Assembly (NCBI RefSeq): GCF_026340095.1
Contig: NZ_JAPEPO010000001.1
Coordinates: forward strand, 4,359,501-4,423,500
Direction of reading: 5' to 3'
From: Streptomyces sp. NBC_01446
Lineage (GTDB): Bacteria > Actinomycetota > Actinomycetes > Streptomycetales > Streptomycetaceae
Length of the DNA: 64,000 nt
In this document: positions 4,457 through 64,000 of the stretch, one piece after another
Position numbering within the stretch: the stretch's first letter is position 1
Layout of the letters: each line of letters starts with the position of its first letter
The notes under the pieces: generated by a model
Told to the model about the DNA's origin: nothing
Databases searched by the model: none
The model's input: the letters and a program-made list of their open reading frames with translations, nothing else
Position numbers and translations under genes: made by a program

Positions 4457-5205
4457 TGACTTCTGATGCAACGAAGCAGACTGTTCCGGTGGCTGAAGCG
4501 ACGGAATCACTTCGGGAACTGATCAAAAGGGCGCGGTTCGTGCTCTTCGACTTCGACGGGCCGATCTGCCGGCTCTTCGCGGGGCACTCGGCGGAGCGGG
4601 TGGCCGTCGAACAGGTGCGGTGGCTGGAGGAACGCGGCCTGCACGGTCTGCTCACCGAGGAGGAGCGCGCGGAACCGGACCCGCACGCCGTCCTGCGCGC
4701 CGTCGACCGCAGGCGCCCCGGCAGCGACCTGGTCGTCGAACTGGAGGAGCGCCTCACCCAGCAGGAGCTCACGGCGGTGGCCTCGGCATGGCCCACGCAG
4801 TACGCCGACCCGCTGATCAGGACGTGGTACGCGGTGGGCGCGCACCTGGCCGTCACGACGAACAATTCCCCGGCGGTGGCGTCCCGTTACCTGGCCACGC
4901 GCGGCCTCACGACCTGCTTCGCCCCGCACATCTACGGCCGGACCCAGGACCTCCACCTGCTCAAACCCCACCCGTACTGCGTGCAACGCGCCCTCGGCGC
5001 CCTGGGAGCGACCCCCGAAGCGTCCCTGATGATCGGCGACACCCCCTCGGACTTCGAGGCGGCAACCGCGGCCGGCATCGCGTTCCTCGGCTACGCGCGT
5101 AATGAACGCACGGCGAAGGTACTGAGGGAGGCGGGGGCGGAGGTGGTGGTGTCGTCGCTGGAGCCGCTTCTGGGAGTGCTGCGGGAGCGGGGGGAAAGTG
5201 ACTGA
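4456..5205 (+). CDS. HAD-superfamily hydrolase
   Basis: A 249-residue haloacid dehalogenase-type phosphatase. All four motifs are present: FDFDG (nucleophile Asp, near residue 31), TTNNS, LKPHP (Lys) and IGDTPSDFEAA (Mg-binding acidic residues). The GTG start overlaps the GntR stop (TAGTG), which indicates co-expression. The next gene encodes an APH-like kinase, so a phosphatase and a kinase stand side by side. The substrate is unknown. Confidence 0.85.
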   Translation: MTSDATKQTVPVAEATESLRELIKRARFVLFDFDGPICRLFAGHSAERVAVEQVRWLEERGLHGLLTEEERAEPDPHAVLRAVDRRRPGSDLVVELEERLTQQELTAVASAWPTQYADPLIRTWYAVGAHLAVTTNNSPAVASRYLATRGLTTCFAPHIYGRTQDLHLLKPHPYCVQRALGALGATPEASLMIGDTPSDFEAATAAGIAFLGYARNERTAKVLREAGAEVVVSSLEPLLGVLRERGESD

Positions 5206-9777: not shown

Positions 9778-11226
9778 TCAGGCCGTAGTCGTACGGGGGC
9801 CGCGCAGCACCCCGTACGCGATCACGAACGCGGCGACGAGCAGACCCGTGCCGACCGTGAAAGCCAGGTGGTAGCCGCTGGTGAGGGCCTCGGCGCGGGT
9901 GCCGCCCTGTGCGGTGAGCGAGCGGGTGCGAGACGCGGCGAGCGTGGAGAGCACGGCGACGCCGACGGCCATGCCGATCTGCTGGGTGGTGTTGAAGAGA
10001 CCGGACGCGAGCCCGGCGTCGGCCTCGCTCGCCCCGGACATGCCGAGCGAGGTCAGCGCGGGCAGGGCGAGGCCGAAACCGGCCGCGAGGAGCATCACCG
10101 GGAGGATGTCGGTGGCGTAGTGCGCGTGCACGGGGACCCGGGCGAGGAGTCCGAGTACGCCGATGAGGAGCGCGATCCCGGTGAGCAGCACGTTCCGTTC
10201 GCCGAACCGGGTGTTGAGGCGGGCCGAGACGCCGAGGGAGACCGCGCCGATGACGGCGGCCGCGGGGAGCATGGCGAGGCCGGTCTCCGCGGCGCCGTAG
10301 CCGAGAACTTGCTGGAGGTAGAGAGCGACCAGGATCTGGAAGGAGAACAGCGCGGCCACCATCAGCATCTGGACCAGGTTCGCCCCGGCGACGCTGCGTG
10401 AGCGCAGGATCCGCAGCGGCATGAGCGGCGTACGGGCCCTTGCCTGCCGGACGAAGAACCCGGCGAGCAGGAGCGCGGCGACGGCCCCGGTCCCGAGCGT
10501 GCGCGCCGAAGTCCAGCCGTACTCCTCGACCTTGACGACGGAGTAGATCCCGAGCATCAGGCCGCCGGTGACGAGCAGCGCGCCGGCCGTGTCGGCACCC
10601 GCCCTGAGCCCGAGGCCTCGGTCGCGGGGCAGGGCGGGAACGGCGACCGCGAGGGCCGCGAGCCCGATGGGCAGGTTGATGAAGAAGATCCAGTGCCAGC
10701 TGAGGCCGTCGGTGAGCAGGCCACCGAGGACCTGTCCTGTCGAGGCTCCGGCGGCGCCGGTGAAGCTGAACACGGCGATGGCCCTGGCGCGTTCGCGGGG
10801 TTCGGTGAACAGCGTGACGAGGATGCCGAGGCTGACGGCGGACGCCAGCGCGCTGCCGACGCCCTGGAGAAACCGCGCGGCGATCAGGATCGCGGGGCTC
10901 GTGGCCACGCCCGCCAGGACCGAGGCCGCGGTGAAGACCGCCGTGCCCACGAGGAACAGCCGCTTGCGTCCGATGAGGTCGCCGAGCCGCCCGGCGAGCA
11001 GCAGCAGGCTGCCGAACGCGATCAGGTAGGCGTTGACGACCCAGCTGAGGCCGGCCGGGGTGAACCCCAGATCGCTCTGGATGGCCGGCATCGCCACGGT
11101 CACGATGCTGCCGTCGAGGATCGTCATCAGCATCCCCGTGGCCAGGACGCCGAGGGCCGGCCACCTGGAGCGCCGGGGGGCGAGGAGAGCCGGAAGGGCG
11201 CGGAGCGGTGCGGAAACGGCAGACAT
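9778..11226 (-). CDS. MFS drug transporter, DHA2 (EmrB/QacA) family
   Basis: A 482-residue, strongly hydrophobic protein. LDGSIVTVAMPAIQ in the first helix and GRLGDLIGRKR (motif A) in the loop between helices 2 and 3 are diagnostic of DHA2 multidrug:H+ antiporters. A MarR gene lies downstream on the same strand and a shared DNA motif stands before both genes, so this is probably a MarR-repressed efflux system. Confidence 0.85.
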   Translation of the reverse strand: MSAVSAPLRALPALLAPRRSRWPALGVLATGMLMTILDGSIVTVAMPAIQSDLGFTPAGLSWVVNAYLIAFGSLLLLAGRLGDLIGRKRLFLVGTAVFTAASVLAGVATSPAILIAARFLQGVGSALASAVSLGILVTLFTEPRERARAIAVFSFTGAAGASTGQVLGGLLTDGLSWHWIFFINLPIGLAALAVAVPALPRDRGLGLRAGADTAGALLVTGGLMLGIYSVVKVEEYGWTSARTLGTGAVAALLLAGFFVRQARARTPLMPLRILRSRSVAGANLVQMLMVAALFSFQILVALYLQQVLGYGAAETGLAMLPAAAVIGAVSLGVSARLNTRFGERNVLLTGIALLIGVLGLLARVPVHAHYATDILPVMLLAAGFGLALPALTSLGMSGASEADAGLASGLFNTTQQIGMAVGVAVLSTLAASRTRSLTAQGGTRAEALTSGYHLAFTVGTGLLVAAFVIAYGVLRGPRTTTA

Positions 11227-54301: not shown

Positions 54302-55167
54302 CTACCGCATGACTGGCAGAGGCCCCTGTGGTCGAGGCAACGCCGACGCCCTGATCACTGTCGGCGCCCTGCCGTCGGGTGGGAGTGCGGATGTCGCCAG
54401 CCGGCACAGCCGCATTCCCTCGTCCCGCAGATTCACCGCCGCGTTCACGTCGCGGTCGTGTGTCGCGCCGCACCCGTCGCATGTCCACTCCCGCACCGCG
54501 AGATCCAGCTTCGGGCCCTTGACGTGGCAGGCCGAGCAGCGGCGGGTGGAGGGGAAGAACCGGTCCACGATCACCAGCGTCCGCCCGTACCACTCGCACT
54601 TGTAACGCAGCTGCCGCAACAGCTCTCCCCAGGCCGCGTTCCGGATCCCACGGTTCAGCGACGCCTTTCGTCTTCTGCCTTTGCCACGAGTTCTGCCTTT
54701 GCCACGAGCCGGCCGCAACAGGGACGCGATGGACAGGTCCTCCACCACGAGCACTTGGCTCTCGCGCACGAGGCGGGTCGTGAACTGGTCCAGCATGTCC
54801 CCGCGTACATCACCAATGAGCGCGTACAGGCGAGCGATCTGCCGCCTGACCTTCTCCCTTCCGCGAACCCCACATTCACCCGATGCCGCTCCCAGGCGCC
54901 CGAACGCAGCGCCAGGCCTTCGTTGTAGACCCACCGGCAGGCGCCGAACGTCTTCTCCAGCTGCTCGGCCTGCGCCGCGGTCGGGTAGAAGCGGAAGCGG
55001 TAGACGCGCTGCTGAGTGCCGGGCTCCTTGGTGCGGCTCCCCATGTGGGTCGCCGGACGGCCCTGATCCTCGACCCGGTCGCTAATGGCGAGTGCCTCGC
55101 GCTTGACGCGCTTGGCGTCGGTGCCGGTCAGCGCCACCGACTGCCCATGCGCCGCCGAATCCCCCAT
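54302..55167 (-). pseudogene. TnpB (IS200/IS605-family OrfB) remnant with internal deletion and frameshift
   Basis: The N-terminal part (from about 55010) reads YRFRFYPTAAQAEQLEKTF and CRWVYNEGLALR, the standard TnpB start. After ERHR the frame changes near 54865 and resumes at EKVRRQIARLYALIGD, followed by VLVVEDLSIASLL (RuvC-II Glu), a zinc finger (CSAC ... CDGC) and THDRDVNAAVNL (RuvC-III Asp). About 150 or more residues carrying RuvC-I are missing, so it is inactive. No TnpA partner. It extends to near the tRNA-Thr gene. Confidence 0.85.
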
Positions 55168-55348
55168 GAGTCCCCCGGGTCTCGTAGTCCGATAGTCGGA
55201 ACAGTGAGTCTGTTCGTTAAACGAACGAGTGCGTGGGTGGTTACGCGGGGATCGCGATCTCGGGCGTGGTGGGCGACTTCGTGGCTGGGGCAAACGGGGG
55301 CTGTGTAAGGTGGAGCAGCCTTCGCGTACGGTCGTTGTCGCACGCGAT

Positions 55349-55424
55349 GCCCCCTTAGCTCAGTTCGGTTTAGAGCGCGTGATTTGTAATCTCGAGGTCG
55401 TCGGTTCGAATCCGACAGGGGGCT
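55349..55424 (+). tRNA. tRNA-Thr, anticodon TGT
   Basis: A full 76-nt cloverleaf: acceptor GCCCCCT/AGGGGGC, D arm GCTC/GAGC, anticodon loop TTTGTAA (TGT, reads ACA), T arm GTCGG-TTCGAAT-CCGAC, discriminator T, CCA not encoded. The anticodon stem CGTGA/TCTCG has one T-T mismatch in the middle. Its 3' part (55395 onward) is the left attachment core of the island, so the 3' half may derive from the element. Confidence 0.9.
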
Positions 55425-55425
55425 C
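55395..55425 (+). repeat. attL core (31 nt, within tRNA-Thr)
   Basis: Identical to 63126-63156. It covers the variable loop end, T arm and acceptor 3' strand of the tRNA plus the next C. Partial similarity (TTGTAAT) continues upstream in both copies. Confidence 0.85.
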
Positions 55426-55427
55426 TG

Positions 55428-55470
55428 CAGGAAACCCCAGCTCAGACGTCGTCTGAGCTGGGGTTTCCTG
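55428..55470 (+). terminator. Terminator after tRNA-Thr
   Basis: CAGGAAACCCCAGCTCAGAC and its exact complement form a 20-bp stem with a GTC loop immediately 3' of the tRNA. Confidence 0.8.
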
Positions 55471-55517
55471 GTTCACCGGACGTGGCGGCGACGCCAGGCA
55501 CGAGCCGCGCCGAGTCG

Positions 55518-55538
55518 GTGGTCTCAGTTGTGGTCTCA
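55518..55538 (+). repeat. Left arm-type repeats (two copies of GTGGTCTCA, 12-nt period)
   Basis: GTGGTCTCA at 55518-55526 and 55530-55538. A matching pair stands near the other end at 62975-62995. The position, about 95 nt inside attL, fits tyrosine-recombinase arm sites. Confidence 0.55.
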
Positions 55539-55712
55539 GACGGACGTTTCGGAGCAGGCGTGCAAGCTGCTCGTTGACTTCTGCCCAGTCTGCAGGGGGT
55601 CCAGTGGTCGGCCGTCCGGGCACGCGATCACGGTCTTGTGCTCCTGCCTCGTGTGCCCGGTCGCGGCTCGCACACGTTCATCCCCTAGCTGCACTTCAGG
55701 GCCCGCGAGAGG

Positions 55713-56113
55713 ATGCGGTGCACCTTGAATACGTGTGACGGGCACGTCGAGCGCTTGAGGCGCCTCGGCATCGCGCACGAGCAGACGCGGTTGGTCAGCC
55801 GCCTCGTGGCACTGCGGATCGGCGCCACGACGCTCGGGCTGCCCGCGGGGGCAGAGGTCTACGCGCGGGCTCGGCCAGTGATGGGGGACCGCCCCACGCA
55901 CACTCACCAGCTGCTACCGCCCCGAGCGTGGACGAAGTGAAGGGCCTGCAACTCCCGCCGGGAGAGCGGGTAGTCGAGCTGCATCGCACGACCTACACGG
56001 CGGACAACACGGTTGTGGAGTTCGCCATCGGCGTTCATGCGGCTACGCGCTTCGCGTGGTCCTACGACTTCAAGGTGCCCGACTCGGCGCAGGAAGGGGG
56101 CGACAAGGCGTGA
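55713..56113 (+). pseudogene. GntR-family regulator (UTRA domain) remnant
   Basis: Two frames joined near 55925. The first has LGLPAGAEVYARARPVMGDR then PTHTH, the middle of the UTRA ligand domain. The second has LQLPPGERVVELHRTTYTAD and FAIGVHAATRFAWSYDF, its C-terminus. The winged-helix domain and part of UTRA are missing. Intact relatives of this type are common regulators in Streptomyces integrative elements. Its stop overlaps the YdcF fragment (GTGA). Confidence 0.7.
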
Positions 56114-56406
56114 TCTCCACACAGGCATGGGCCGACGCGCAGGAACTGTGGGCCGTCCAGCAGATGGGCCAAGAACTCCGGCCATGCTCGGTAGCCATCG
56201 GGCTCGGCAGCCATGACCTCGGCGTAGCTGACGTGACGGCCGACCTGTACCACTGTGGCCTGGCGCCCCTGATCGTGTTCACCGGGGCGACCAGCCGAAC
56301 GACGCGTGAGGCGATGCCGAAGGGCGACAGGGTGTTTCGGAGCCACTCGGGCAGCGAGATCGGGAGCCGCCGTTTGGACACCGGGATTGAGAGCCACGTC
56401 TCCTGA
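56110..56406 (+). pseudogene. YdcF/SanA-like (DUF218) protein, N-terminal fragment
   Basis: From GTG 56110 the frame reads ELWAVQQMGQELRPCSVAIG, LGSHDLGVADVTADLY and PLIVFTGATSRTTREAMPKG, the N-terminal ~67 residues of actinobacterial YdcF-family proteins (normally about 200). After that the sequence diverges and stops, so the rest of the domain is lost. Coupled to the GntR remnant. Confidence 0.65.
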
Positions 56407-56555
56407 CCTGGTGTGACATGCCGCCCTTAGCGTAATCGGCTCGTTGGGTCGGTTGGCCGTGTCAGGCTGTGCGGATTGACGGTCGTACCAGGAGCCCGTG
56501 TGTACCGATCACGTGATGGGGGCTTCGAGCGGATCCGTCAAGGGCGGGTGGGGCT

Positions 56556-57796
56556 GTGACGGCAGGAGAGTCGCAGCCCGAAAGGGGCGCGGTGGACCGG
56601 TCGGAAGGATTCGGTGAGCTGCTGCTGGGGGTGCTGCTGGACCGGGCCCACGAGATGCCACCGCATCTGATCGCCCCGCTGATCGTGGAAGTGGTGGGTC
56701 GGGTCGGGGGCCGTGACGTCTCGGTTCTCCTGCAGGACTACGAACAGCTGATGCTGGTGCCGCTGCCGGGTAGGCGGCTGACCGTTGGCGAGTGCGCGCC
56801 GATTGATGGCTCCCCCGCCGGCACGGCCTTCCGGAGCGGGACCCCCGTCGAGGTGCCGCAGGCAGACGGGGTGCGGATGTACCTGCCGTTGCTGGACGGC
56901 AGTGACCAGGTGGGGGTGCTGGCGCTCACCCTGGACACCGTCGACGTCGACGACCGGCGGCTGCTGCGCCGACTGGCTGGCCTGGCCGCCCACGTGCTGG
57001 TCACCAAGAACAGCTACACCGACCAGTTCTTCCAGACCCGACGGCGCGAGCCGATGAGCGTGGCCGCGGAGATCCAGTGGTCCCTGCTGCCCCCGCTGTC
57101 GATGTCCACCCCGCAGGTCGCGGTGGCCGGCATCCTCGAACCCGCCTACAAGGTCGCCGGCGACAGCTTCGACTACGCCCTCAACGACGACATCCTGCAC
57201 GTCGCCACAGTCGATGCGATGGGACACGGCCTGGACGCCGCCACCATGGCGACCGTCGCCATCGGCGCCTACCGGCACGCCCGCCGCACCGACGTCGGGC
57301 TGTCCGAGATCTACGCGTTCATGGACCGGGCCATCGCCGGGCAGTTCGGGCCCGAGCACTTCGTCACCGCACAGATGATGCGCCTGAACGTTGCGACAGG
57401 CCACCTGCAATGGGTCAACGCCGGCCACCCCGCGCCGCTGCTGATTCGCAACCACCAGGTCGTCCGGCAACTCCACAGCCCCACCACCTTGCCGGTCGGC
57501 TTCGGCGGCGACGAGCCCCAGCTCAGCGAGCAGACACTCCAGGTCGGCGACCGGGTGCTGTGCTTCACCGACGGCCTGATCGAGGAGCACGATGTCCGCG
57601 GCGAGCAGTTCGGCGAGGAGCAACTCATCGCCTGGGTCAACCGCATCGAGCACGCGAGGAAGGGGTTCGGGCCGTGGTGCGCTCCCTCTCCCACACCCTG
57701 ATCCGGGAGCGGGGCGGGATCACCAGCGATGACGCGACCCTCTTCCTGATCGAGTGGCGCGGGGGCGCCGCCGACCACCTTGCCACCCTGGAATGA
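56556..57796 (+). pseudogene. GAF-like plus SpoIIE-type PP2C phosphatase, frameshifted near the C-terminus
   Basis: The first frame (56556-57701, 381 residues) has a GAF-like N-terminal half (SVLLQDYEQLMLVPLPGRRL) and a PP2C domain: KVAGDSFDYAL, VDAMGHGLDAATMATVAIG, CFTDGLIEEHD. Near 57660 the conserved end shifts to the +1 frame: GVRAVVRSLSHTLIRERGG then SDDATLFLIEW, the last metal-binding motif, ending at 57796. A one-base indel in a G-rich run probably inactivated it, unless it is a sequencing error. GTG start. Confidence 0.75.
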
Positions 57797-57883
57797 GCCG
57801 ATACCGCCCGACGGAGGGGCGGCCGTGGGCGGTGAGATCGGGCATGTCACGCGAGAAAACCGCGAGGGATCTACCGTAAAGGT

Positions 57884-58132
57884 ATGAGCGTGTTCATCAA
57901 GCTGGTGGAGAACCGGCCCCCCAAGGAATACGCGGAGCTGGCGGCCGCAGATATCTCCTACGACGACATCACCGAAGGTGAGTCGCCCGCCACGTACGAG
58001 TACGACCTGCTTCCGAGCGGCGCATTGCGGATCCTCAGGATGACCAAAGGCGAAGCCGCTGTAGTCGAATCGATCTACGCTCCCGGACTCTGGTTCCGTG
58101 TCCGGGGGCAATGTCGCGGTAATGCGGAATAG
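57884..58132 (+). CDS. Small hypothetical protein
   Basis: An 82-residue acidic protein (VENRPPKEYAELAAADISYD, then EYDLLPSGALRILRMTKGEA) without a recognised domain. TACCGT at 57872-57877 lies 6 nt before the ATG, so the gene looks expressed from a leaderless promoter. No signal peptide. Confidence 0.6.
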   Translation: MSVFIKLVENRPPKEYAELAAADISYDDITEGESPATYEYDLLPSGALRILRMTKGEAAVVESIYAPGLWFRVRGQCRGNAE

Positions 58133-58579
58133 CAAGCACTTTGCCAGCAGCCGGGCGCTGCCGGCTACTGAGCCCGGTCGTCGGTACTTGAGGTCCGAGC
58201 AGATGTGCTCATGCTTCGCGTCAGGCTACGGAATCACGTCGGAAACTACGCAGGTGTACCGTGGATCGTGGGTTGCGCACTCTCACGTGTCGCGCCTGAA
58301 AGGACGGCCCCGGCGGTTTCACCGGGGCCGTTTCGGCGGTCACGCTGAGCGTGCTGGCGCGGTCACACGGGCGCCATGGCCGCCCTCGGAGTCCCAGACC
58401 GCTTCTCGGCCCAGGTCGGCTCTTGTCACGATCCGTTGGAATTCGGCCCTCTCCAGCAGATCACCCGCTGTGTGGCTGCGCAGCGGACCGGTAGCCGCAG
58501 TCATCAGCCAGGCAGCGATGGCCGGATCCGTCTGCGGCGGAATCACGAGCAGGTCCCAGCGGCCAACGGTGTAGGAGAG
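58133..58579. other. Region without an intact gene; possible minus-strand remnant
   Basis: The minus strand (58575-58340) reads SYTVGRWDLLVIPPQTDP and AAWLMTAATGPLRSHTAGDL, protein-like with normal actinomycete codon use, but it runs without a start into the IS remnant. It may be the C-terminus of a gene cut by the IS. At 58300-58335 lies a GGCCCCGGCGGTTTCACCGG-type hairpin. Confidence 0.35.
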
Positions 58580-59201
58580 CAGCAACAGCAGGCTGGTGGG
58601 GTGGCGAACATCGACGACGAGGCGGTGTTCGCCGCGACCGTCTACGTGCTGGTCAGTGGTTGTGCCTGGCGGGCGCTGCCGCCCTGTTTCGGGGCGTCGA
58701 AGTCGACTGTGCATCGCCGATTCGTGATCTGGTCGCGGGCCGGAGTGTGGGGCCGGATGCACCAGAAGGTGTTGCAACTCCTGCACGAACAAAGGTTGGT
58801 TGATCTCTCTCGCGCGGTCCTCGATTCCGCCCACGTCCGCGCTAAAAGAGGGGCGCACTTGCAGGTCCGAGCCCCGTGGACAGGGGTAAGCCTGGTTCCG
58901 AGACGCATGTCCTGTCCGACGCGGCCGGACTGCCCCTACGCGTCGGACTCTCCGCGGCCAACACCCACGACAGCCGGCACTGAAGCCGATGCTGTCTCAC
59001 TTCCACATGGGACACGAGTTCCACGCAGCCGACTCCAAGCCACAACGCCTCCACGCGGACAAGGCGTACGACATCCCTCATCTGCGGAAATGGCTATGGG
59101 GCAAACGCATCGGCGTCCGAATCGCCCGCAAGGGCATCGAGTCCAGCGAACGGTTAGGGCGCCGCAGGTGGGTCATCGAGCGCATGAGAGCACGAGGATA
59201 A
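58580..59201 (+). pseudogene. IS5-family transposase remnant
   Basis: Frame 1 starts ANIDDEAVFAATVYVLVSG, with CAWRALPPCFG and DSAHVRAKRG. After a frameshift near 58855 comes GPSPVDRGKPGSETHVLSDA and LSAANTHDSR. After another near 58980 comes HADKAYDIPHLRKWLWGKR, ending RRRWVIER before a premature stop. The N-terminal ~30 residues, the C-terminal ~50 residues and the inverted repeats are missing; at least two frameshifts. Confidence 0.85.
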
Positions 59202-59242
59202 ACAAGGCTGAACGGCAAAGATGATTCGCCACTACAGGACGA

Positions 59243-59281
59243 TGAGGCGCCCGGCCCATGGCCGGGCGCCTCACTATTTTT
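59243..59281 (+). terminator. Rho-independent terminator
   Basis: TGAGGCGCCCGGCC-CAT-GGCCGGGCGCCTCA, a perfect 14-bp stem followed by CTATTTTT, one of the few T-tract terminators in the window. Confidence 0.85.
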
Positions 59282-59580
59282 GCCCTGTTGGTCTAGCCAA
59301 TGTGAGCCAGGTTGCTGCGAATGCATTATTTTCATTGACCCCTGCGCCGACCTGGTCACGACGTCGTGGCCTCGCCCGTTCGAACCAAACAGGCACCTCT
59401 AGCCAGCCCGTTAATGATTTTTTGTGTACGCGATCGGCTCGTCAGGTCGGGCGAAACCGCCCGGCTGAATCGCAACACGGCCCATATTGATGAGTAACGT
59501 GTCAGCGGCAGAAAACAGGCGATTCTGCGTGACTGAGAACCGTCAAAAATCACCGTCCCCTCACAGGAGTTGGCCCCTCG
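59282..59580. other. AT-richer intergenic region before the DUF3494 gene
   Basis: About 300 bp, clearly less GC-rich than the surroundings (for example 59320-59345 and 59410-59430). It probably holds the promoter of the DUF3494 gene. No gene seen. Confidence 0.5.
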
Positions 59581-60894
59581 ATGACGCCACCCAATTTCCC
59601 TGTCGCGCCTCTACGGCGCACATTGTCGGTGTGGATCGCGGCGGTACTTGCCGTGGTGATCTCCGCCGTCGTAGTCGCTGTTAGTCCGACACAGGCGAGT
59701 GCTCTCGCCACGTTTGTAGATCTGGGTAGGGCAGACAGCTTCGCGGTACTGGCCGGTTCGGCAACCACCAACACCGGCCCTTCGGTGATCACTGGAGATG
59801 TCGGAGTGTCTCCGGGAACGTCCATCACGGGATACGAGTCCGCCGTGGTGAACGGGACCCAGCACTCTGCGGACACTGTGGCCCAGAATGCGCAGACCGA
59901 CCTGATTGCGGCGTACGACGACGCCGCCGGGGAGCCCTCCGACCCCGACGGGGCACTTCCCGCGGACGCTGGTGGCCAGACGCTGGTTCCGGGCGTCTAC
60001 ACCGCCTCGTCCACGCTGGGACTCACGGGCACCCTCACCCTTGATGCAAAGGGCGACCCCAACGCGGTCTGGGTGTTCCAGATTGGTTCGGGTCTCACGA
60101 CGGCATCCGGCAGCAGTGTGTCCCTCATCAACGGCGCCTCGCCGTGCAATGTTTTCTGGAAGGTCGGCAGTTCGGCCACCCTCGGCACCGACTCCGACTT
60201 CGTGGGCAACATCCTTGCCCTGACCTCGATCACCGCCACCACGGGCGCGAGCATCGAGGGGCGGGCGCTGGCCCGTAACGGTGCCGTGACGCTGGACACC
60301 AACACGATCACCCGGCCGCAGTGTGCCGCTGGCACCACGGGTGGCACCACCGGCGCGACGACTGCCGGCACCACCGGCGCGACGACTGCCGGGACCACCG
60401 GTGCGACGACTGCCGGGACCACCGGTGCGACGACTGCCGGGACCACCGGTGCGACGACTGCCGGGACCACCGGTGCGACGACTGCCGGCACCACCGGCAG
60501 CACCACCGCCGGTACGACGGGCAGCACGACCGGTGCGACGACTGCCGGTACGACGGGCAGCACGACTGCCGGCACGACCGGTGCGACGACCGCCGGTACG
60601 ACGGGCAGCACGACTGCCGGCACGACCGGTGCGACGACTGCCGGCACCACCGGCAGCACGACTGCCGGTACGACGGGCAGCACGACTGCCGGCACGACCG
60701 GTGCGACGACCGCCGGTACGACGGGCAGCACCACCGCCGGCACCACTGGTGGAGGCGGCCACGGCTGCAAGCCCCACAAGCCCGGCGGGTACGGCGACAA
60801 GCCCGGCGGGTACGGCGACAAGCCCGGCGGGTACGGCGACAAGCCCGGCGGATACGGCGACGAACCCGGCGGGTACGGCTGTGACCCCGCCTAG
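59581..60894 (+). CDS. Secreted DUF3494 (ice-binding-like) protein with two tandem-repeat tails
   Basis: A 437-residue protein: signal peptide (about 1-40, ending TQASA), a DUF3494 domain (about 44-245: DSFAVLAGSATTNTGPSVIT, GDVGVSPGTSITG, VWVFQIGSGLTT, GNILALTSITATTGASIEGR), then about 16 copies of an 8-residue Thr/Gly unit (ATTAGTTG/STTAGTTG), a GGGGHGCKPHK linker and five 7-residue PGGYGDK units. DUF3494 forms a beta-solenoid that binds ice in some microbes and serves as a surface adhesin in others. AGGAG lies about 12 nt upstream of the ATG. Confidence 0.85.
   Translation: MTPPNFPVAPLRRTLSVWIAAVLAVVISAVVVAVSPTQASALATFVDLGRADSFAVLAGSATTNTGPSVITGDVGVSPGTSITGYESAVVNGTQHSADTVAQNAQTDLIAAYDDAAGEPSDPDGALPADAGGQTLVPGVYTASSTLGLTGTLTLDAKGDPNAVWVFQIGSGLTTASGSSVSLINGASPCNVFWKVGSSATLGTDSDFVGNILALTSITATTGASIEGRALARNGAVTLDTNTITRPQCAAGTTGGTTGATTAGTTGATTAGTTGATTAGTTGATTAGTTGATTAGTTGATTAGTTGSTTAGTTGSTTGATTAGTTGSTTAGTTGATTAGTTGSTTAGTTGATTAGTTGSTTAGTTGSTTAGTTGATTAGTTGSTTAGTTGGGGHGCKPHKPGGYGDKPGGYGDKPGGYGDKPGGYGDEPGGYGCDPA
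60355..60750 (+). repeat. 24-bp coding tandem repeat (about 16 units plus one half unit)
   Basis: Units of the type GCGACGACTGCCGGCACCAC plus CGGT encode ATTAGTTG or STTAGTTG. The first six units are of the A type, later ones alternate with S types, and one half unit (STTG) interrupts the run, suggesting expansion by slippage or recombination. Confidence 0.9.
60781..60885 (+). repeat. 21-bp coding tandem repeat (five units)
   Basis: CCCGGCGGGTACGGCGACAA plus G encodes PGGYGDK. The last two units vary (GDE, GCD). Confidence 0.9.
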
Positions 60895-60960
60895 CATGCA
60901 CGGCCGACTCCGCAGGGATAAGCCCTCGGAGGCAGCCGCCCACATGCGCGCGTAGGTCAG

Positions 60961-61003
60961 GCGGCGTGCGGCGCGGATCGTCATCGATTCCGCCGCACGC
61001 CGC
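60961..61003 (+). terminator. Hairpin between the DUF3494 and DUF5819 genes
   Basis: GCGGCGTGCGGCG and CGCCGCACGCCGC form a perfect 13-bp stem with a 17-nt loop, 24 bp before the next start. It is a terminator or a read-through attenuator. Confidence 0.6.
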
Positions 61004-61026
61004 AGGCGCAAGCTCAGGAGAACCAG

Positions 61027-61794
61027 GTGAGAGAAGTCGGGACGGAAAGGCCGGATGTAGCCGTGCGGGGTGGCGTTGCATCCGCAGATGCTGACGAATC
61101 GGGCCGGGCTCATGCTGGGCCAACCGCACAGAAGGGAGACGGGAGACCGACTGCGTTGCAAGCGTCTTCAGAGCCGCCCGTCGTCCTGAAGGCCGCGGTA
61201 CACGTCGCCGTGATCCTGTGTCTGGCGACGGCCCTGGTCCACGTACTCCTGGTATTCCTGCAGGTGGCGCCGCCGAATCCCCTCTCTCGGCAGTACAGCC
61301 GGCAGGTCAACGCCTGGGTCTTCCCGTTGTTCGAGCAGAACTGGCGGCTCTTCGCCCCGGACCCGGAGTCGGTCAACCGGCAGATCTCGGCCAGGACCAT
61401 GCATACCGCCCCGGACGGTACCGTCCATGTCAGCGGCTGGTTCGACCTGGGCGCCGTCGATACAGCCGCGGTGAAACACGATCCCTTCCCGAGTCACACA
61501 TCACAGAACATGCTGCGCCGGGCCTGGACTTCCTACCTCGAAACACACGGCGGCGACGACCGTCCGCGCTCGCAACGCGCGCTGATGATCCAGCAGTACC
61601 TGGGCAACATCGCAGTGGATCGCGTCGCCGCCCATCGCACCGGCGCATTCGAGTCCATCCAACTGCGAGTGATCACCCTGCCCATCGCCGCACCGCCCGC
61701 AGCGAGCGGCCACAGTCCCGGCGCGGCCGCACCACGGCCCACCGACACCCGTTACCTGCCCTGGTGGAAGGTGGCCCGCCATGCAACAAGCTGA
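61027..61794 (+). CDS. DUF5819-family membrane-anchored protein
   Basis: A 255-residue protein with a hydrophilic N-terminus, one membrane helix (about 58-80, VAVILCLATALVHVLLVFLQV) and an exported domain with QVNAWVFPLFEQNWRLFAPD, the hallmark of DUF5819. Such genes are typically paired with HTTM genes, as here (14-nt overlap). GTG start with GGAG 6 nt upstream. Function unknown. Confidence 0.8.
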   Translation: MREVGTERPDVAVRGGVASADADESGRAHAGPTAQKGDGRPTALQASSEPPVVLKAAVHVAVILCLATALVHVLLVFLQVAPPNPLSRQYSRQVNAWVFPLFEQNWRLFAPDPESVNRQISARTMHTAPDGTVHVSGWFDLGAVDTAAVKHDPFPSHTSQNMLRRAWTSYLETHGGDDRPRSQRALMIQQYLGNIAVDRVAAHRTGAFESIQLRVITLPIAAPPAASGHSPGAAAPRPTDTRYLPWWKVARHATS

Positions 61795-62938
61795 GCAGAC
61801 ATCGGCCCCGGCAACCACGCCGTCGCGACCCGGACACGGCGCCGAGCGGGGGAGCGCACGTACGCCGCAGCGAATGCCCGACCGCATCGGTACGCTCCTC
61901 ACTCTCCTGCTGGAGCGGCCCATCTCCCTGTATGCTGCGGCGGTTCTACGCATCGGCTACGGGTTCCTCTACCTCGCCTTCCTGCTACGCGAGTTTCCCC
62001 ACCGCAACGAGATCTGGGGTCCCGGCTCACCGTGGACGCCGACACTGGCCAGGCAACTCTTCGACCAGACCGGCTGGGTCAGCATCCTCACCCTGTCCGA
62101 CAGCCGGGCCTACTTCGAGGTCTGCTACGCGGCAGCCCTCGTCACCTCCGCACTGTTCATGCTGGGCTGGCGGACCAGAGCGGTGTCCGTGCTGTTCGCG
62201 GTCGTAGTGACGTCCTTCCACGCCAGGGCGATCTACATGACGGACGGAGGGGACACCCTCATCCTCCTCATGGTCCTCTACCTCGTCGTCACCGCATGCG
62301 GCCGACGCTGGTCCCTCGACGCGCGCAGGACCCGGCTCCGAGCATCCGCCGTCAAGACGGACCGGCTTCCGCTGGACCAGGCATCCGGCGAGCTGCGACG
62401 CCACCTCCGCGACGCGCGCCTGACAGTGATCACCGTGCTGCACAACTGCGGCATGCTCGTCATCGCCGCCCAGGTCTGCTTCCTCTACGGATCCGCAGGC
62501 CTGTACAAGGTGCAGGGCGCCGCCTGGGGCAACGGCACCGCTCTCCACTACGCCCTGAACCTCGACGTGTTCCAGCCCTGGCCTGAGCTCTCCGCCATGG
62601 CGGACGAACACGACGTACTGATCGCCATCGCCTGCTACCTGACCGTGCTGTTGCAGGTGGCCTTCCCGTTCGTCCTGTTCGGCAGGCTCAAGTACCCCGT
62701 CCTGACGATGCTGTTGGGCATGCACCTGGGTATCGCGCTGTTCCTGGGCCTGCCGCTCTTCTCCGGCGCGATGATCGTCGCGGACGCCGCGTTCCTTCCA
62801 GACCGCTTCTACCGGTATCTCGGACAGCTGTGGCGGCTCACTACCCAGCGCGATGTGCCGCGGCATCACCCACCTCAGCACCTCGGCCACCAGCCGCTCC
62901 CTCCCACCCGCGCGCTCCCCGTGCCCCGCGGACGTTAG
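61781..62938 (+). CDS. HTTM-domain membrane protein (vitamin K-dependent carboxylase-like)
   Basis: A 385-residue multi-helix protein: ISLYAAAVLRIGYGFLYLAF near residue 48, SFHARAIYMTDGGDTLILLM in the middle, and FLYGSAGLYKVQGAAWGNGT. This is the HTTM (horizontally transferred transmembrane) domain shared with gamma-glutamyl carboxylase. Bacterial members have no proven activity in general. Overlap with DUF5819 implies one functional unit. The C-terminal 35 residues are soluble and His/Pro-rich. Confidence 0.85.
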   Translation: MQQAEQTSAPATTPSRPGHGAERGSARTPQRMPDRIGTLLTLLLERPISLYAAAVLRIGYGFLYLAFLLREFPHRNEIWGPGSPWTPTLARQLFDQTGWVSILTLSDSRAYFEVCYAAALVTSALFMLGWRTRAVSVLFAVVVTSFHARAIYMTDGGDTLILLMVLYLVVTACGRRWSLDARRTRLRASAVKTDRLPLDQASGELRRHLRDARLTVITVLHNCGMLVIAAQVCFLYGSAGLYKVQGAAWGNGTALHYALNLDVFQPWPELSAMADEHDVLIAIACYLTVLLQVAFPFVLFGRLKYPVLTMLLGMHLGIALFLGLPLFSGAMIVADAAFLPDRFYRYLGQLWRLTTQRDVPRHHPPQHLGHQPLPPTRALPVPRGR

Positions 62939-62974
62939 GCGCCGGCGCACCCACGGAAGTATGGGACGGCAGTC

Positions 62975-62995
62975 TTGGTCTCAGTCGTGGTCTCG
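62975..62995 (+). repeat. Right arm-type repeats (TTGGTCTCA and GTGGTCTCG, 12-nt period)
   Basis: The pair (62975-62983 and 62987-62995) matches the left pair at 55518-55538 in sequence, order and period, and lies about 130 nt inside attR. Confidence 0.55.
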
Positions 62996-63066
62996 ATTGC
63001 CGCTCGGTTCGTTGGCGTCCACTTTGGTCCTGTGAGGTCCAGGACCCTTCATGACCAGGGGTGAAG

Positions 63067-63104
63067 CTTGTTCCGTGGATGAACGTGGACGTCCACGGAA
63101 CAAG
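63067..63104. repeat. 13-bp inverted repeat next to attR
   Basis: CTTGTTCCGTGGA and TCCACGGAACAAG flank TGAACGTGGACG, 21 nt before the attR core. It may be a recombinase/excisionase site or a terminator of lost element genes. Confidence 0.6.
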
Positions 63105-63125
63105 ATCGCACAACTTGTAATGCGT

Positions 63126-63156
63126 AGGTCGTCGGTTCGAATCCGACAGGGGGCTC
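63126..63156 (+). repeat. attR core (31 nt copy of tRNA-Thr 3' end)
   Basis: Exact copy of 55395-55425. The preceding bases (CTTGTAATGCGT) resemble but do not match the anticodon arm, and no 5' tRNA half exists here, so this is an attachment site and not a gene. Confidence 0.85.
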
Positions 63157-63162
63157 CCACGG

Positions 63163-63202
63163 GACGAAGGCCCAGGTCACGGGTGTGACCTGGGCCTTCG
63201 TC
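63163..63202. terminator. Hairpin beyond attR, probable original tRNA-Thr terminator
   Basis: GACGAAGGCCCAGGTCAC and its exact complement form an 18-bp stem with a GGGT loop. It lies between attR and the convergent oxidoreductase gene, where a terminator for the pre-insertion tRNA would be expected. Confidence 0.75.
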
Positions 63203-63217
63203 GTGCGTGGGAGCTTG

Positions 63218-64000
63218 TCAGCCGCGGCCCGCCACCCGGTCCGCGGCTCGGGCCAGGCGGGAGGAGTCCGTCGTGTGGGTGGTGAGTTCGCGGTGGTCGG
63301 CCGCGTTGTAGGTGGCGTACATGCCGTGGACGCCCAGCCAGCGGAAGGGTTCCGGTTCCCACTTGCGGACCTTGTGGTTGACCCAGGGGAGGGTCGTGAG
63401 GTCGGTGGGGCCGGACTGGCCGGAGTCCTGCTGGACGAGGTCGCGCAGGGTGCGGGCGGCGAGGTTGGTGGTGGCGACGCCGGAGCCGACGTAGCCGCCC
63501 GCCCAGCCGAGGCCCGTCGCGCGGTCGAGGGTGACCGTGGCGCACCAGTCGCGGGGGACGCCGAGGACGCCGGACCAGGCGTGGGTCACGGCGATGCCCG
63601 CCAGCTGGGGGAAGAAGCGGGTCAGAAGCGCGGTGAGGGACTCGATGGTGGCGGGCTGGGTGCGGCCGTCGTTGTCGGTTTTCGAGCCGTAGCGGTACGG
63701 GACGCCCCGGCCGCCGAGCGCGATGCGGCCGTCGGCGGTGCGCTGGGCGTACATGTAGGCGTGCGCCATGTCGCCGAGGGTCTCGCGGCCCTCCCAGCCG
63801 ATGGACTCCCACTGCGCGTCGGTCAGCGGCTCAGTGGCGATCATGGACGAGTTCATGGGGAGCCAGGTGCGGCGCTGGCCCTTGAGAGAGGCCGTGAAGC
63901 CCTCGGTGCAGCGCAGGATGTAGGGCGCGCGGACCGTGCCGTACGGGGTGACGGCGTGCTTCGGCTTGATCTCCGTGACGGGCGTCGACTCGTGGATCGT
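63218..64000 (-). CDS. FAD-dependent oxidoreductase (DAO family), C-terminal part cut by window edge
   Basis: The minus-strand frame is open to the right edge. It includes TVRAPYILRCTEGFTASL, LPMNSSMIATEPLTDAQW, AYMYAQRTADGRIALGGRG, FFPQLAGIAVTHAWSGVLGV and the FAD-binding GLGWAGGYVGSGVATTNLAA. This matches D-amino-acid-oxidase/gamma-glutamylputrescine-oxidase-like enzymes. Start and N-terminal Rossmann motif lie outside. Confidence 0.85.
   Translation of the reverse strand, partial: TIHESTPVTEIKPKHAVTPYGTVRAPYILRCTEGFTASLKGQRRTWLPMNSSMIATEPLTDAQWESIGWEGRETLGDMAHAYMYAQRTADGRIALGGRGVPYRYGSKTDNDGRTQPATIESLTALLTRFFPQLAGIAVTHAWSGVLGVPRDWCATVTLDRATGLGWAGGYVGSGVATTNLAARTLRDLVQQDSGQSGPTDLTTLPWVNHKVRKWEPEPFRWLGVHGMYATYNAADHRELTTHTTDSSRLARAADRVAGRG

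Follow-up and report, generated by a model that had tools for sequence, protein, structure and literature searches.

Remains of an integrative element, very probably a decayed conjugative one, between a tRNA-Thr(TGT) gene and its partial copy in Streptomyces sp. NBC_01446

We analyzed a 64-kb stretch of the Streptomyces sp. NBC_01446 genome (hereafter, the window; positions 4359501-4423500 of contig C3 of genome G000, 10.86 Mb in total), in which the region between a tRNA-Thr(TGT) gene and a partial copy of that gene bears the marks of a former integrative element. The tRNA gene (55349..55425, plus strand; ARAGORN), which we regard as the reconstituted target, is the sole tRNA gene in the window and the only tRNA-Thr(TGT) gene found in the host genome. 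Its 3' end is the attL core (55395..55425, plus strand), a 31-mer, AGGTCGTCGGTTCGAATCCGACAGGGGGCTC, present in exactly two plus-strand copies in the window, at 55395 and 63126, offset by 7,731 nt; the count thus bears out the initial annotation, made from the sequence alone, that the tRNA 3' end is copied exactly over 31 nt 7.73 kb downstream. The second copy (63126-63156) is embedded in a 54-nt repeat of 83% identity (63103-63156) and, together with an anticodon-loop side of the type found in the related elements described below (ACTTGTAATGCGT), forms attR (63113..63156, plus strand). Aligned with 20 other attR sequences, the window copy has no gaps of its own from the arms to the core. Two terminator-like hairpins, neither assigned to a strand, accompany these ends. 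One, of 21 bp (55428..55470), is probably element-borne, as the family sequences have a hairpin at the same place. The other, beyond attR (63163..63202), is probably the original terminator of the tRNA gene, as had been proposed, and hairpin-like sequence was also seen by eye after the tRNA in several empty sites.

Each end of the element also carries a pair of short repeats with a 12-nt period, referred to here as arms: TGGTCTCAGTTGTGGTCTCA at the attL end (55519..55538, plus strand) and TGGTCTCAGTCGTGGTCTCG at the attR end (62976..62995, plus strand), in the same orientation. The pattern GGTCTC-N6-GGTCTC occurs just twice on both strands of the window, once per element end. These pairs had been annotated as 9-mers recurring at each end with this period and orientation; the pairs are indeed there, but the exact 9-mer GTGGTCTCA has only two copies, both at the left end, and the right pair is one base off in each unit. 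An inverted repeat of 13 bp with a 12-nt loop (63067-63079 / 63092-63104, no strand assigned) stops short of the tRNA-like part of attR by ~8 nt and of the 31-mer by 21 nt, so that its earlier description as abutting attR is roughly right. No 13-bp inverted repeat was reached in 2,100 composition shuffles of 21 aligned attR segments. However, it was seen in the window attR alone: the longest inverted repeat in the same stretch of the 20 aligned relatives is 6 bp. It is thus no family feature, and a role as recombination signal is not supported.

Inside attL lie the remnants of an integrase gene (int). A DNA model of 26 family sequences, extending from the tRNA end through int, matched three minus-strand pieces: one covering the terminator, the arms and the 3' end of int (55431..55562; model positions 5-140, E 1.2e-20), a second at 55562..55675 (336-450, E 3.7e-12) and a third, in the region PSHVFKVHRILSRALK, at 55694..55742 (986-1034, E 1.8e-10). 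The pieces are collinear with the family model, and the catalytic boxes are lost. When the proteins of a complete relative, L054 of genome G039, were compared by tblastn with window positions 55300-63300 (threshold E 0.01), its integrase produced two short minus-strand matches (E 4e-5 and 0.009). Projected onto the L054 protein, the two gaps of the fossil remove residues 151-329 and 368-433, which hold GMGFRQGEALGLRW and SRHTAG...HTQISQTRRY, and the first ~130 residues are also gone. We take the lost stretches to be the site of the catalytic Arg, His-x-x-Arg, His and Tyr of tyrosine recombinases. The absence of any recombinase, as first annotated, holds insofar as no Phage_integrase or Resolvase domain exceeds the Pfam cut-off inside the element, but an integrase fossil in three pieces remains.

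The regulator remnants that had been noted inside the element could be located as well. A GntR/UTRA regulator fossil (55779..56113, plus strand) comprises two matches to the L054 protein (55779-55904 and 55931-56095; E 2e-26 and 2e-9) and a stop codon at 56111-56113, and it is followed by a fossil of a DUF218 protein (56062..56403, plus strand; match 56062-56328, 70% over 89 aa, E 1e-35); both are named after the Pfam families of the intact relative. No tblastn match was obtained in the same interval for L054 TraB, TraA, Prim-Pol or DUF3631. The resulting order, attL-int-(gap)-GntR-DUF218-cargo-attR, matches that of L054.

To compare the locus with its relatives, the right flank was searched against 120 genomes, of which 116 matched, many of them weakly or by the tRNA end, and part of these as well as further genomes were fetched. 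For 19 genomes other than the host, one fetched locus contained both the tRNA and the FAD-oxidoreductase gene that follows attR in the window. Eight of these have an empty site, that is, the two genes in the same orientation separated by a gap of 49-110 nt (G006, 57 nt; G012, 86; G030, 110; G038, 49; G042, 52; G046, 89; G071, 84; G313, 78). For comparison, attR and the FAD ORF are 61 nt apart in the window. Among the scanned intervals, G005 keeps a family attL-like stretch (E 7.5e-11) and G041 has two further att-like copies, so the tRNA-Thr site seems to have been used repeatedly.

Complete relatives were sought with the L054 integrase in a set of 295 genomes of the genus, 54 of which matched at E 1e-60 or better; among the matches listed, 28, the query's own included, cover almost the full length with at least 79% identity. 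All but one of the 30 returned integrase loci hold a tRNA-Thr gene (CGT or TGT), the remaining one, L209, lacking a complete tRNA. The arms fit the GGTCTC pattern with at most one mismatch in 24 of the 30 loci, and the other six carry AGTCTCA-N4-TAGTCTCA at the same place. The far end was examined in 21 family loci, with arms accepted at up to 3 mismatches. In 16 of them, attR lies at 12.9-18.3 kb, with arms and with a tRNA copy that is identical from the anticodon loop onward; among the other five, no far end was found within the stretch in four (one of them cut off by the end of its contig), and the fifth lacks a tRNA. L054 encodes a tyrosine integrase, Prim-Pol, DUF3631, TraB (E 5e-273), TraA, GntR and DUF218 proteins. 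Like L054 and L055, the window element has a tRNA-Thr target, a terminator, arms ~93 nt from the tRNA end and int converging on the tRNA. It also shares the optional trait of a GntR-DUF218 pair towards the far end, close copies of which are present in 7 of the 21 family loci and in L050 of the host genome. The same tRNA thus also hosts complete elements in which an integrase gene adjoins these arms. In 27 of the 28 nearly full-length relatives, the attL-side arms fall within the 3' end of the int reading frame. An origin of the arms by chance or as a coding artefact was nevertheless rejected, because a second pair is present at the end away from int in all 16 complete elements (at most 3 mismatches) and in the window.

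Collectively, these results indicate that the window element is very probably a decayed actinomycete integrative and conjugative element (AICE), that is, a cis-mobilizable element (CIME). The initial annotation had proposed a degenerate integrative element, with attL, attR and arm repeats; the eight empty sites and the complete relatives back this proposal, and nothing contradicts the reading as a former element. As in a CIME, attL and attR are retained, the integration gene survives as a fossil, and the transfer genes are lost, with no tblastn match and none among the scanned ORFs. An intact AICE is not what we find, given that the integrase is only a fossil and the FtsK-like TraB has no match. 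As for a replication initiator, L054 Prim-Pol has no match and none was found in the ORF scans of the window; other Rep types were not searched for one by one. We envision that the attachment site (attP) of a tyrosine-integrase AICE of the tRNA-Thr family recombined with the only tRNA-Thr(TGT) gene, in its 3' part, which would have restored the tRNA at attL and left a partial copy at attR. Later deletions would have removed most of int along with the replication and transfer genes (Prim-Pol, TraA/TraB), which would presumably have made autonomous excision impossible, while a cargo trio would have kept its reading frames open during this decay. Exit would then be possible only through an incoming integrase that reads the arms, or through a new AICE landing in an att site and carrying the element along in cis.

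Several observations weigh against this interpretation. Only eight of the 19 genomes have the short gap, two (G025 and G039) carrying a complete element of the same family and nine carrying other DNA or a rearrangement. In these nine, 0.66 to ~10 kb of other DNA is present, and the FAD gene is inverted in two. The deletions themselves are not seen, only their outcome. Furthermore, the replication and transfer genes are absent rather than fossilized, so that it is the relatives and the order int-GntR-DUF218 that favour an AICE over a smaller element with an integrase only. Finally, the anticodon stem is TCTCGAGG at attL and of the family type ACTTGTAATGCGTAGG, also given as TGCGTAGG, at attR. 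This difference misfits a crossover in the anticodon loop, to which the identity of all 16 complete elements from the loop onward points; barring a later replacement of the tRNA, it would place the exchange within the 31 nt.

The anticodon stem of the window tRNA-Thr(TGT), CGTGA/TCTCG, contains a T-T mismatch. Decay of the tRNA was considered as its origin and rejected, as G164, which has a syntenic upstream flank and no arms, has an identical stem, and six more genomes among the matches listed have the near-identical stem CTTGA/TCTTG. The sequence comparison suggests that the mismatched stem is more likely a native tRNA type than damage. The T-T mismatch type of tRNA-Thr(TGT) was observed in the window, G164, G071, G123, G215, G235, G285 and G313. 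Comparison of the flanking genes places msiK nearest to that of G059 and the FAD gene nearest to that of G285. Just upstream of the tRNA, a TnpB-like (IS200/IS605) gene is split between two frames (window 54302-55293), and similar DNA is found at the same place in G006 and G164.

To assess how widespread the arms are, we scanned genome contigs for the exact motif GGTCTCARTYBTGGTCTCA and obtained 126 sites in at least 119 stretches, most of them from actinobacteria such as Streptomyces and Kitasatospora and a few of clearly unrelated origin. At 53 sites, the motif follows a same-strand tRNA 3' end at a distance of 50-98 nt, the spacing being 79-98 nt for Thr, 50-74 nt for Ser and 50-75 nt for Phe (from three sites). 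A 3' fragment of tRNA-Ser or tRNA-Thr lies downstream of the motif, as in attR, at 35 sites and upstream at 12, and 26 sites have neither. In total, 100 of the 126 sites have such att-like contexts, against 83 of 3,150 sites drawn at random from these stretches, and the tRNA genes are mostly Thr and Ser. The tRNA motifs defining these classes were widened after the sequences had been viewed, which lowered the class with no context from 46 to 15 of 83 sites, so that this recount is not blind; in the blind part, the other 39 of the 119 stretches, unseen when the rule was made, 32 of 43 arm sites fall in att-like classes. Judging from this geometry, the arm sites in the scanned genomes would be ends of elements; for the Thr family, they are. 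No description of the motif was found among the literature matches listed, in a search that did not reach most subscription papers. Used alone as a search pattern, the end motif GGTCTCA-N4-TGGTCTCA can flag the attL and attR sites of elements in tRNA-Thr and tRNA-Ser genes, including integrase-less ones overlooked by integrase-based screens.

Between the regulator fossils and attR, the element carries a GAF-SpoIIE phosphatase gene (56556..57796, plus strand), probably frameshifted, because similarity to a homologue continues past a frame change around 57660, and an ORF with an IS4/5-type transposase fragment (DUF4096; 58376..59224, plus strand; Pfam). These are followed by the cargo trio, all on the plus strand: an Ice_binding (DUF3494) protein with C-terminal TTAGTTG repeats (59581..60894), a DUF5819 protein (61027..61794) and an HTTM protein (61781..62938) that is weakly SdpB-like, below the SdpB family cut-off. 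Tandem repeats of 24 nt (window 60326-60880) encode the TTAGTTG-type units of the ice-binding protein in its C-terminal part, followed by a 21-nt repeat that encodes GGYGDKP. A relationship of DUF5819 to SdpA was rejected, as the window copy and one homologue had no NCBIfam match up to E 10 and another homologue had one unrelated match (E 0.11). Among the literature matches listed, neither 'HTTM domain' nor DUF5819 is mentioned. The layout of the trio presumably resembles the sdp operon of Bacillus, with the ice-binding protein in the place of the substrate; what an ice-binding protein does beside an SdpB-like membrane protein is a testable question.

The HTTM protein has matches in 60 of the 295 genus genomes at E 1e-50, host included, and the loci of 53 of the 59 non-host genomes were fetched in two sets (33, L273-L305, and 20, L326-L345). 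Order and strand of the trio are kept in all 53. In 5 of them, the trio is flanked by a tRNA gene on one side and a repeat of that gene's 3' end on the other, in elements of 4.8-9.0 kb: at tRNA-Ser(TGA) in L279 and L329, tRNA-Ser(GGA) in L281, tRNA-Arg(TCT) in L289 and tRNA-Thr(TGT) in L300. With the window, the att-flanked trio is thus found in six genomes and at four tRNA genes (Thr(TGT) and Ser(TGA) twice each, Ser(GGA) and Arg(TCT) once each). In L274, the trio lies just outside a duplicated tRNA end. Neither in these five elements nor in the window does a Phage_integrase or Resolvase domain exceed the cut-off, although the fetched stretches are too short for elements larger than ~17-20 kb and the lack of integrases may reflect that bias. 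Weak Phage_integrase matches were seen inside L281 (E 5e-4), L289 (0.47) and L279 (0.57), and a scan of single ORFs returned a truncated integrase end in L281 (E 6e-5), weak matches in L279 and L300 (E 0.003 and 0.004) and the end of RepSA in L289 (E 5e-11). L300, the 6.0-kb element of G306, has TGCGTGAGCG rather than GGTCTCA arms near both ends (5150-5200 and 10890-10920), and its trio is followed by a DCC1-like gene.

In the trio tree, the att-flanked state requires at least 4 changes, some of which may be losses or missed att sites. L281 and L289 carry very close sister trios, one in a tRNA-Ser(GGA) gene and the other in a tRNA-Arg(TCT) gene of another genome; from their sequences, these probably reflect recent cargo exchange between element types. 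Enrichment of the trio near tRNA genes was not significant (11 of 33 loci against 2 of 20 control stretches, p = 0.10; 12 of 53 with 20 more loci); the att-flanked cases are supported by their repeats, independently of such an enrichment. The dN/dS ratios of the three cargo genes are 0.26-0.64 in five comparisons; since the frameshifted SpoIIE gene yields 0.56, these values do not demonstrate constraint since the decay. Tentatively, and at less than even odds, the trio might be a travelling operon that was picked up several times by tRNA-targeting elements and has outlived their integrases. As integrases with different tRNA targets have one arm motif in common, many helpers could then move such stranded elements. 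It is found at or beside tRNA-Thr(TGT) in three genomes, and in the window its frames are open even though the vehicle is dead.

The survival of both arm pairs and of a perfect 31-nt core would also be expected if the element were still mobile, with an integrase encoded elsewhere reading the GGTCTCA arms and excising and integrating it in trans. The arm motif occurs at tRNA-Thr and tRNA-Ser sites in many actinobacteria, and the 28 nearly full-length Thr-family integrases among the matches listed for the 295 genus genomes indicate that helpers are not rare. However, the host genome contains no intact close relative of the integrase. The sole close piece elsewhere is a 137-aa truncated C-terminus at tRNA-Thr(CGT) (C3:3731323-3731745), two more matches reach at least E 0.001 with 29-31% identity, and none of the 12 Phage_integrase matches in the host genome at E 1 or better lies inside the element. 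Four further traces of the element family were noted in the host: an attP-like remnant with arms on both sides and no tRNA, which looks like an integrated attP or a tandem junction (C3:671404-671695), lone arms at C3:860554, a right end with GntR and DUF218 cut inside the core at C3:2755998 (these three by eye), and the tRNA-Thr(CGT) locus (C3:3731323-3731825); an intact integrase was seen in none. An arm match at C2:639188 was rejected as an element trace, as it reads as repeated coding sequence, and one at C3:2666607, with two mismatches, was left out. Moreover, no recent cargo copy came to light, as the HTTM cargo protein has its closest match elsewhere at 78% identity; the element in its entirety was not searched for at the DNA level. 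A helper integrase from the host genome is unlikely, and the initial assertion that the element must otherwise be mobilized in trans finds no support there, the only close integrase copy being truncated, though more distant integrases are present. Overall, we consider continued mobility in trans unlikely.

Integration into a tRNA 3' end by a tyrosine integrase is common to temperate phages, integrative and mobilizable elements (IMEs) and AICEs alike, and the remains could in principle derive from either of the former. Yet no phage or relaxase family was found among the scanned ORFs of the window, whereas in the complete relative L054 int, GntR and DUF218 are accompanied by TraB, TraA and Prim-Pol, and the fossils of the window are arranged as in L054; a phage or IME origin is accordingly very improbable. 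G020 (L273), where the trio lies between tRNA-Thr(TGT) and the FAD gene and no second att copy was found, could instead suggest that the trio was native beside the tRNA before any element arrived and that the att copy arose around it. We regard this as very improbable, too: an inserting element would leave older neighbours outside attR rather than inside, eight relatives have an empty gap, and the tree places the trios of the window, L300 (G306) and G020 in three separate parts. Descent from a tRNA-Thr AICE by decay remains our preferred explanation.

By itself, the window element is one more decayed AICE, of a kind already described in Streptomyces. Decay of AICEs in a Streptomyces population is covered in the section 'AICEs are prone to decay' of PMC9513070; the example given there lies in a glycosyltransferase gene, whereas the window element occupies tRNA-Thr(TGT) and carries the Ice_binding-DUF5819-HTTM cargo. 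CIMEs, as defined in PMC5704250, are decayed ICEs (integrative and conjugative elements) or IMEs, and the window element resembles them in having lost the integration and transfer genes and kept attL and attR. It differs in that the definition speaks of ICEs and IMEs, whereas the window element would derive from an AICE and its capture in cis is conjectural. According to PMC3218068, tyrosine integrases of pSE211-type AICEs target a tRNA-Thr gene; compared by description only, the window family is alike in combining an AICE tyrosine integrase with a tRNA-Thr target. The same source describes KorSA, the GntR regulator of pSAM2, and the window family likewise appears to be an AICE type with a KorSA-type GntR regulator, but pSAM2 has RepSA, whereas the relative L054 has Prim-Pol.

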